The notes beneath the pieces were generated by a model. That model searched no databases. It saw only the letters and a program-made list of their open reading frames with translations, and was not told where the DNA came from. From the NCBI GenBank assembly GCA_013214575.1, contig JABSSD010000078.1, positions 1 through 64,000 of the forward strand: a stretch of DNA of 64,000 bases, written 5' to 3'. This stretch comes from Paracoccaceae bacterium (lineage in GTDB: Bacteria > Pseudomonadota > Alphaproteobacteria > Rhodobacterales > Rhodobacteraceae). Shown here piece by piece: positions 40,899 through 43,052 of the stretch (position 1 is its first letter; the number at the start of each line of letters is the position of its first letter). Both the position numbers and the translations under genes were made by a program.

Positions 40899-41375
40899 CT
40901 AATAATTCAAAATCTCAATGAACCGTGAGTGCTCGACGATCAGCCTAAATGTCATTTCAGTTTGTATGACAATTGGTGGCATCTCTGTCTCGGAGGCCAT
41001 AAAGGCTAGTTGCGACCTTGCCTGCCGCCACTCCCTGCCGCTCACGGAGTGACCGTCCCCAACCGTATAAATTACCGCCCGGCGGGCATTCTCTTTGGTG
41101 GAAACAAAAAACGTCGGGCAGGCGTCTGCCGCGTCTTTCCCCAAGCCCCCATTGGACGATCTATACACCTGGTGAAATGATAGCGGGGCTACCGTGTCCT
41201 TTCTTGAAAAACCTCCAATATCGCCGCAAGCCGCGATAACAGCATGTTGTTCTTTGTTCGCCCGCTCAAACACCCAAGAGGAGTATCCAGTTGAACCTGC
41301 AAAACTTGGAACTGAAGCCAAGATAAAGGCGCTGGTGATGAGAGTAGACCCCCAGAACACAATGCGCCTTGTCAT
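40899..41375 (-). CDS. Exported protein of unknown function
   Basis: The 158-residue product has an N-terminal signal (I-V-F-W-G-S-T-L-I-T-S-A-F-I-L-A-S-V-P-S-F-A-G) and two Cys (A-A-C-G-D-I and D-A-C-P-T-F) that may pair. I do not recognise a family. The ATG at 41375, with GAGAGA 10 bp upstream, is preferred over a GTG three codons earlier. Codon use is more AT-rich than in neighbouring genes, suggesting transfer. Confidence 0.6.
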   Translation of the reverse strand: MTRRIVFWGSTLITSAFILASVPSFAGSTGYSSWVFERANKEQHAVIAACGDIGGFSRKDTVAPLSFHQVYRSSNGGLGKDAADACPTFFVSTKENARRAVIYTVGDGHSVSGREWRQARSQLAFMASETEMPPIVIQTEMTFRLIVEHSRFIEILNY

Positions 41376-41720
41376 CGTGGGCACGTCTCTCGAAAGCCAT
41401 TTTAACAGGTTGATATCCTGAAGATGGAATTTTCTAATTCAATCTGAAATCCAAATTCTTACTGTAGATAATCTGTTTTACATCGACTGCAGTAACTTGC
41501 CGTAATCTTAAATGAAATACACTGAAGGCGGGAAAACTAATCTTGTGTTTCTCGCCAAGCGGCCTATGCCTAGGGTCAGGATCCATTGATAGTCTGACAG
41601 TTCGCTGATTCACTGCTCCGAAAGAAGGGCGGAATTTTGAGCGATCTGTTTTGGCTGTCGGAGGCGCAAATGGCGCGCCTTCGTCCTGACTTTCCACAGC
41701 CCCACGGCAAGCCGCGTGTT

Positions 41721-41760
41721 CACTGCCCGTCAGGGTATTGCGTAGCCATGTCCCGAGAGG
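41721..41760 (-). repeat. 40-bp insertion, copy 1 (inverted)
   Basis: This 40-bp block separates the codons R-V and D-D-R-R of the transposase, which are adjacent in the family. Its reverse complement matches 42072-42111 at 35 of 40 positions. Confidence 0.85.
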
Positions 41761-42071
41761 GATGACCGGCGTGTTCTCAGTGGGATTATATTTGTTAATC
41801 GCAATGGGTTGTCTTGGCGGGATGTGCCTGCAGAATATGGCCGACCTAAGACGCTTTACAACCGTTGGATCCGCTGGAGCGGCAAGGGTATCTTTGCCCA
41901 TATTCTGATGAAACTGGCGCGCGAAGGCGACAAAACCGATGTGCTGATGATCGGTGCAACACACTTAAAGGCACATCGCAGGGCATCCAGCCTGGGGCGA
42001 AAAAAACAGCAAAAGGCCGCATGATTGGCCTAACAAAGGGCGGGCTGAACTCAAAACTGCATGCTGTGCCC

Positions 42072-42111
42072 CCTCTCGGGACATTGCTTTGCAATACCCT
42101 GCCGGGCAATG
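42072..42111 (+). repeat. 40-bp insertion, copy 2
   Basis: This block begins CCTCTCGGGACATTGCTTTG and lies between CCC and AAG codons after L-H-A-V; removing it restores the frame to A-L-D-R-P-I. It holds two small hairpins, ATTGC-TTT-GCAAT and CCC-TGCC-GGG; the second is kept in copy 1. Confidence 0.85.
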
Positions 42112-42577
42112 AAGGCTTTGGACCGCCCGATCTGGATGTTCCTGAGCGCCGGAAACTTCAGCGACGCCGCCGCCGCACGGGCCCTTCTGTCGTCTCTCCC
42201 GAAGACCAAGTGGCTGCTGGCGGATCGCGGTTGCGACGCCGATTGGTTCCGTAATGCATTGAAAGATCGGGGAATCGCCGCCTGCATCCCGTCACGCAAG
42301 AACCGAAAGGTAATCATCCCGCACGACACCGTTCGGTATCGTCAGCGCCACCGTACCGAGAATATGTTCGGGAGATTGAAGGATTGGCGACGCATCGCAA
42401 TGCGTTATGATTGATGCCCTGAAATTTTCCTATCGGCCATCGCGCTGGCCGCTACTGTCATTTTCTGGCTATGAGTCCTGACCCTACCTAAAGCCAGCGC
42501 TTTTAAACATCATTTTGACCGTCAGCAGCGCATTCTTTCGCGATGATTTGTCAATTTTCCCAGCACATTGATTTTGC

Positions 42578-42970
42578 ATGATACTAAAAATTAAAAAACT
42601 CTGGTTTTGGCTGTGGGGCTGGACATGGAGTGAAGTCCCTTTGCCTTCAGGTATCGTTGTTGGACTAATGAAGAATAGGAGAGCGGTGCATAAGGCCATC
42701 TACTTGCGGCAAGACCCATCGGTCTACTCTACTATTTCGATAGCAGACCTCAGGGGGCAATGTAGATCACCTTGGCGCATTCGAACGTGGCCAATAATTT
42801 GCAAGTTTTATAATAGCAAACAGCAATCGAAACTGCCGTATGATTACTTTTATGACGCGGATTACAACGCGACCTATAATTCGTCAGACGGCGATTTGTT
42901 TTGTTTCCCGTTCAACGATATTCCTGAAATTGACAGCCTCAAAACAGAATTCCGTAAGTCGGGAGCCTGA
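42578..42970 (+). CDS. Protein of unknown function in accessory patch
   Basis: The 130-residue product (M-I-L-K-I-K-K-L-W-F-W-L-W-G-W-T-W-S-E) has an aromatic N-terminus, several Tyr and Asn, and a D-Y-F-Y-D-A-D-Y-N-A-T-Y-N segment. I recognise no family. No clear ribosome site precedes the ATG. Codon use is AT-rich, as in the other unknown gene of this patch. It may be real but foreign, or a decayed fragment. Confidence 0.4.
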   Translation: MILKIKKLWFWLWGWTWSEVPLPSGIVVGLMKNRRAVHKAIYLRQDPSVYSTISIADLRGQCRSPWRIRTWPIICKFYNSKQQSKLPYDYFYDADYNATYNSSDGDLFCFPFNDIPEIDSLKTEFRKSGA

Positions 42971-42985
42971 AGGCGCTGTCTCGCG

Positions 42986-43052
42986 TCCCGCCGCGCAGCG
43001 GCGCTGGGCCCAACGGGAGGCGGCATCGCAAGATGCCAGGTGACGGGCGGGA
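42986..43052. other. Hairpin-rich segment, possible structured RNA or mobile repeat
   Basis: An outer TCCCGCC/GGCGGGA stem (42986-42992 with 43046-43052) encloses GGGCCC and a perfect GGCATC-GCAA-GATGCC hairpin with a GNRA-type loop (43022-43037). CGCCG/CGGCG arms (42989-43003) offer an alternative pairing. Further right, GTTTGGCGG (43056-43064) is complementary to CCGCCAAAC (43174-43182). Transcription is not shown. Confidence 0.35.

Follow-up and report, generated by a model that had tools for sequence, protein, structure and literature searches.

A dispersed hairpin repeat of about 40 bp, probably a non-autonomous mobile element of Rhodobacterales, with two copies in one IS5-type transposase gene

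The window is the whole stretch of DNA analysed, 64,000 nucleotides from a Paracoccaceae bacterium (assembly GCA_013214575.1, contig JABSSD010000078.1, positions 1 to 64,000). It contains an insertion sequence (IS) of the IS5 type, about 912 bp in size, with DUF4096 and DDE_Tnp_1 domains; its listed homologues are annotated as IS5 family or ISPso2-like. Two small hairpin elements of opposite orientation are inserted in the transposase gene. The features are as follows.

41573..42484 (about), forward strand: host IS, IS5 type, with ends GGGTCAGGA/TCCTGACCC and TA on both sides
41637..42475, forward strand: transposase coding sequence, broken by both hairpin elements
41721..41761, forward strand: hairpin copy 1, class GGGYATTGC, a net 40-bp insertion after CGTGTT
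42071..42111, reverse strand: hairpin copy 2, a net 40-bp insertion, antisense to the transposase

The 40-bp blocks at 41721-41760 and 42072-42111 are reverse complements at 35 of 40 positions, a figure given in the initial annotation and reproduced by recount. The extended arms (41719-41761 and 42071-42113) are 88% complementary, and this inverted pair is the sole repeat of at least 20 nt found in positions 41000-43000 of the window. Copy 1 is sense to the transposase and its stem is partly decayed; block 1 folds no better than shuffled sequence (z −0.02). Copy 2 adopts the structure of the family when folded, and block 2 folds better than shuffled sequence (z −2.09). Within the 64-kb window no further element scores beyond the two blocks (next matches at E ≥ 0.5).

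Homologues without the blocks are present on plasmids, so that the reported 40-bp breaks relative to the IS family hold. Among 20 plasmid homologues listed, 19 are shorter than the matched window stretch by 80-81 bp and one by 70 bp. In pairwise alignment, the first site shows a 40-bp gap in the homologues of both P. pantotrophus and D. shibae; the second is likewise short of 40 bp in total, which the aligner spreads over three gaps. A matching blockless member of the IS5 family also has a frame change between its parts (query 1-112 and 109-252). A second IS copy in the genome is 94% identical, has unrelated flanks and carries both blocks; by the initial annotation, such copies with the blocks as normal sequence would refute insertion, an outcome borne out by half: this copy fits it, and the plasmid homologues, which lack both blocks, do not. 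The window copy has a TGA near the end of the transposase, which the second copy does not have. The inverted copies lie 309 nt apart within one gene, as a local template switch would leave them. This origin, raised at the outset, is excluded by the other dispersed copies, and homologues without both blocks speak equally against ordinary IS sequence; together these two explanations retain next to no probability.

The blocks are members of a dispersed hairpin repeat, 37-45 bp in length. When the IS is blasted against its own genome, many block-only matches are obtained, in both orientations. The 13-base end motif occurs 50 times, and its reversed control once. A covariance model of the repeat, built from 19 copies, gives at least 117 matches in the own genome at E ≤ 1 and at least 103 at E ≤ 0.01; genome counts are lower bounds, 146-150 of about 4,000 candidates being scored. 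Within the genus, seven of eight genomes are positive at E ≤ 0.01, including G001 with a single weak match (genomes are cited by G numbers, loci by L numbers). Of 41 genomes scanned at the same threshold 19 match, with zero matches in the 16 from outside the family. Family-wide, with one genome per genus, 22 of 61 are positive at E ≤ 0.001; the search for the 40-mer elsewhere, proposed in the initial annotation, thus has a positive outcome both in the own genome and in the family. Four of 190 genomes of a class-wide sample are positive at E ≤ 1e-4, among them G172 and G183 from other families; the matches in G183 are weak and are not found by the score matrix. Matches per genome are 131 in G003, 31 in G020, 13 in G009 and 11 in G004.

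Plasmids hold matches at 189 places in 102 records, and the genera named in this tally are of the Roseobacter group and its relatives. The exact pattern is found in 88 stretches of the genome collection, and nearly all of the 80 listed titles name Rhodobacterales. One of the pattern matches, L153, stands in a record titled Enemella evansiae TN21-6, probably a mislabelled assembly. Two contigs of the viral collection match the repeat. No Rfam covariance model has a match overlapping the blocks at E ≤ 10, and no paper describing a repeat of this kind in Rhodobacterales or Roseobacter was found in the open-licence literature. Among the places listed for G020, match pairs recur at 99-bp spacing (810707/810806 and 1268910/1269009), which suggests another multiplied IS with two inserts. 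Roseobacter-group marine bacteria carry a swarm of such hairpins, landing cleanly and repeatedly in transposon genes.

Ends of the element are constant, CACTGCCYGGCA at the 5' side and GAGAGGG at the 3' side. The stem sequence ranges from GGGCATTGC to GTGCATGT, TGGTTTGC or GGGTATGT, its complement always being present. Loops are mostly purine-N-A triplets. In 146 distinct rows 97% of the cells are paired, and the covariation score is 0.349 versus 0.090 for shuffled rows and at most 0.036 with slid partners, in an alignment that was fitted to the model under test and favours that model. T-G plus G-T pairs number 55, C-A plus A-C pairs 13. The former are thus tolerated and the latter are not; therefore the structure belongs to one strand. 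For the consensus, RNA folding parameters give the covarying structure and DNA parameters do not. DNA parameters prefer a structure of three small hairpins; this rival structure is without covariation (0.094 versus 0.093 shuffled) and was rejected.

Half elements were observed at two loci (L318, position 546, and L319, position 1501). They consist of CACTGCCCGGCAG, followed by TAAAA in both, with no second half within 3 kb. In L318 the sequence after the half element resembles, by eye, the end of an IS110-type IS; half elements of the L318 type may derive from insertion of an IS into the hairpin.

Flanks of the copies were compared with every fetched locus. An empty allele is present for 112 of 233 unique copies, at 60 of 159 distinct sites; net lengths of 34-46 bp were accepted. 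The net gain is 39, 40, 41, 42 and 43 bp at 1, 17, 37, 3 and 2 sites, respectively. At the 55 sites with 39-41 bp there is accordingly no room for a target duplication. A net gain of 42 bp occurs at only three of the 60 sites; a single insert, in S. pontiacus BL28, is in frame. The target is one-sided: NYRTY precedes the element at 165 of 233 copies (3.1% of background positions) and YCRTY at 86 of 233 (1.0% of background), and the 3' side shows nothing comparable except a G. The NYRTY bases are present in empty alleles and therefore are target, not element tag. An intact IS30 with zero inserts is carried by a plasmid of Sulfitobacter SK025. The same IS30 with one 42-bp in-frame insert (98.5% identity) is carried by a plasmid of S. 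pontiacus BL28, and a plasmid of S. pontiacus S1704, 99.2% identical to that of BL28, has a second, 41-bp insert in the IS30. By this series of zero, one and two inserts, insertion is recent in places. The dispersed copies, the empty alleles and the Sulfitobacter series together bear out the initial annotation of a tiny mobile palindromic element, and IS alleles without the blocks, which it had proposed to look for, are the plasmid homologues described above. In IS3 of G003 two adjacent inserts (L097 and L098) are fused, and about 160 bp of IS between them are lost; element-element recombination generates deletions, as here.

Most copies reside in or next to transposase genes. Of 233 copies, 192 have a transposase at a distance of at most 450 bp, 106 of them on both sides, by search with a library of 19 transposase proteins drawn from the loci studied; those scanned with Pfam were confirmed. 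With library proteins of the own locus left out, 183 of 233 copies remain near a transposase. On the same contigs, in the genome scan, 94 of 115 copies are near a transposase versus 10 of 204 control positions placed at least 1.5 kb away from copies. By genome, transposase-near copies number 33 of 41 in G000 and 26 of 33 in G003. Twenty neighbours unassigned before widening of the library are mostly transposases or integrases, and seven have no Pfam match. Host IS families are IS5, IS3, IS110, IS21, IS66, IS30 and IS481-like. Counted by distinct site, 80 elements are oriented against the transposase and 42 in its direction. From the frequency of targets alone, 55% antisense would be expected (p 0.009), so the antisense bias is at most mild. 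A different insertion, of about 55-70 bp with internal repeats, was observed in the IS3 orfA of G003 (L096, L097 and L098, alignment columns 526-585). It reads GATTGAGCCGGAACGG...ATATCCCGGTG, is absent from L079 and L076, and is perhaps a second small mobile repeat.

Alternatively, a small number of old insertions could have given rise to all copies, with IS transposition and gene conversion as the only means of spread. Multiplication of block-bearing IS is observed: in G003 one IS110-type IS has five full-length copies, about 99% identical and every one with both blocks, and in G078 four IS5 copies share one hit pattern; the two that were read contain two variant blocks each and have a nonsense codon in common. 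Since this nonsense-bearing IS5 was multiplied, disabled copies can multiply, via a trans-acting transposase or by gene conversion. In the G003 IS110, 7 of 36 variable positions lie inside the 41-bp block (p 6e-5), including a compensated pair, as if the blocks were replaced by other copies. Filling of the same site in diverged homologues points the same way: of 714 homologous pairs below 85% identity, 200 are filled at the same site, compared with about 12-14 YCRTY target sites in an IS5 gene. A test of element similarity at same sites (p<1/20000) was set aside because many loci had been fetched with the exact pattern and hence are alike. The few-insertions explanation is opposed by the 159 distinct sites across many IS families, by unrelated stems within a base of one site (L132, L229 and L295) and by the new insertion between the two S. 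pontiacus plasmids, and is decidedly unlikely. Same-site filling across genera is partly recurrence, given the number of YCRTY sites per gene and the unrelated stems at a single one.

Most inserts are frame-shifting, and both orientations occur. It is conceivable that excision of the block from RNA, or skipping of it during translation, keeps the interrupted transposase working, as with byp elements. The G003 IS110 copies could be read so: the block is inside the transposase in all five, there is no stop or indel, both frames are open, and variable codons are five synonymous to one not after the block and five to five before it. Where copies share a filled site, the substitutions between them are biased by codon phase both before and after the block, and the block-bearing genes of L228, L227, L126 and L176 look otherwise intact in the stretch read. 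This bias is, however, explicable by recurrent insertion at shared sites, and the remaining evidence is adverse to bypass. Doubly blocked, nonsense-bearing copies were multiplied in G078, stops are present in L084 and L085, and in L183, whose insert occupies the site used in L228, the frame changes immediately upstream. Insertion in both orientations also speaks against it, and net lengths of 40, 41 and 42 would need different jumps. Bypass is thus most improbable. At positions 590 and 750 of L195 two blocks lie within one open transposase ORF of 375 codons; the frame is lost at the first block and apparently regained at the second.

No mobilising enzyme was found among the Y1, Y2 and reverse transcriptase families tested. 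Y1 tyrosine transposase (PF01797) is present in G000 (one match, with internal stop), G002, G007 and G014, and the size, hairpin, one-sided target and absence of target duplication are REP- or IS200-like, as expected of a REP-like repeat whose mover is a RAYT. The family has no match in G003, G020, G009 and G004, which hold 131, 31, 13 and 11 repeat matches, and the copies stand in transposase genes with NYRTY as target rather than tag. Movement by a RAYT is therefore unlikely. An RNA copied back into DNA, of the retron, group II intron or DGR type, would agree with the consensus covarying fold given by RNA parameters and with wobble tolerated on one strand only. Reverse transcriptase (PF00078) has no match in G000, G003, G004, G007 and G009, in a search set that did not include G020, and this origin is very unlikely. 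Neither RAYT nor reverse transcriptase is supported as sole mover, several copy-bearing genomes being without the gene. Y2 (PF04986) is over-represented in copy-rich genomes (5 of 8 versus 1 of 17 and, in the one-per-genus set, 5 of 10 versus 4 of 51). It is missing from copy-bearing G020, G062, G067, G075 and G078, and four genomes have it without repeat matches. IS load is a likely common cause of this association. Ends of IS91 copies, the elements of the Y2 type, show no resemblance to the block. A search of the own genome with half elements gave no longer relative in the 11 loci inspected. The initial proposal of a MITE fragment is not supported, no source element with matching ends being found in this limited search. 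HUH enzymes act on a folded single strand in trans. By analogy, the best guess for the mover is an enzyme acting in trans on one folded strand; that RNA and not DNA parameters give the conserved fold is in tension with a pure single-stranded DNA model.

Several known systems resemble the repeat. IS200/IS605-type elements have hairpin ends and insert 3' of a short motif without duplication. The repeat shares with them the hairpin, insertion 3' of a short motif and lack of target duplication, and differs in that the Y1 gene is absent from several copy-rich genomes and no autonomous partner was found. Small dispersed repeats of Nostoc are tiny, dispersed and mobile-looking, as is the repeat, the likeness being by description alone. 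Byp elements are hairpins of about 40 nt in coding genes of yeast mitochondria, where bypass was shown; the repeat has the same size and also lies inside coding genes, but in bacteria. CGTC-tagged REPs, according to the available part of PMC3733652, are hairpins of 20-40 bp in high copy, common in alphaproteobacteria, with stems of 8-9 bp and a CCA tail; the CGTC families are without a dedicated transposase, some members lie within genes, and most REPs are intergenic. The Roseobacter genera named here are not mentioned in that part of the source. The repeat shares with REPs the imperfect palindrome of 20-40 bp in high copy. It differs in its ends and stem and in its IS residence, compared with the mainly intergenic location in that portion of the source; further, the GTAG/GGAG or CGTC tag is part of a REP, whereas here the 5' bases vary and lie in empty alleles. 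From RAYT-linked REPs it differs in the absence of the Y1 gene from G003, G004, G009 and G020. Rickettsia palindromic elements and bacterial MITEs are 100-200 bp long, most with target duplication and TA ends, and Neisseria repeats of 107 bp are reported fused to transposase ORFs (PMC2229807, in the part available). Palindromic, non-autonomous and also inside genes, the repeat is like them as that part describes them. Likeness to Rickettsia palindromic elements, suggested initially, stands only loosely: these are at least 100 bp, in-frame and peptide-giving, and the repeat is a net 39-43 bp, under half that size, mostly frame-shifting and hosted by transposase genes. Unlike MITEs, it leaves no room for a duplicated target at 55 of the 60 sites, within a search range of 34-46 bp. 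REP-like in its size and MITE-like in its passivity, the element departs from both kinds in features that were tested.

The two blocks are probably copies of a family of non-autonomous mobile elements of about 40 bp in the order Rhodobacterales. The substrate would be one particular single strand, because G-T/G-U pairs are tolerated and the complementary C-A mismatch is not. A trans-acting enzyme would recognise the folded strand by its ends and join it to the target. Once in an IS gene, a hairpin copy would be carried along passively with each copying of the IS; the IS copy that receives an insert would normally be knocked out by it. As a counter-point, block 1 itself no longer folds. Beyond this, it is possible, though doubtful, that an undescribed transposition system is present, in which an enzyme outside the tested families moves a folded strand of about 40 nt and prefers transposase genes. 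On the same tentative footing, only the constant ends and the fold would be read, and the element may be a parasite or a host brake of ISs. If true, few mobile elements with a definable structure would be smaller.

The combination is unusual: an element of about 40 bp has ends that are constant and a stem that is free in sequence but paired, inserts cleanly at a one-sided target and resides in other transposons. It is family-wide, recently active, without known enzyme and occurs in cultured bacteria, where the question of the mover is directly testable. It also explains many frame-broken transposase genes of Rhodobacterales left blank by annotation.
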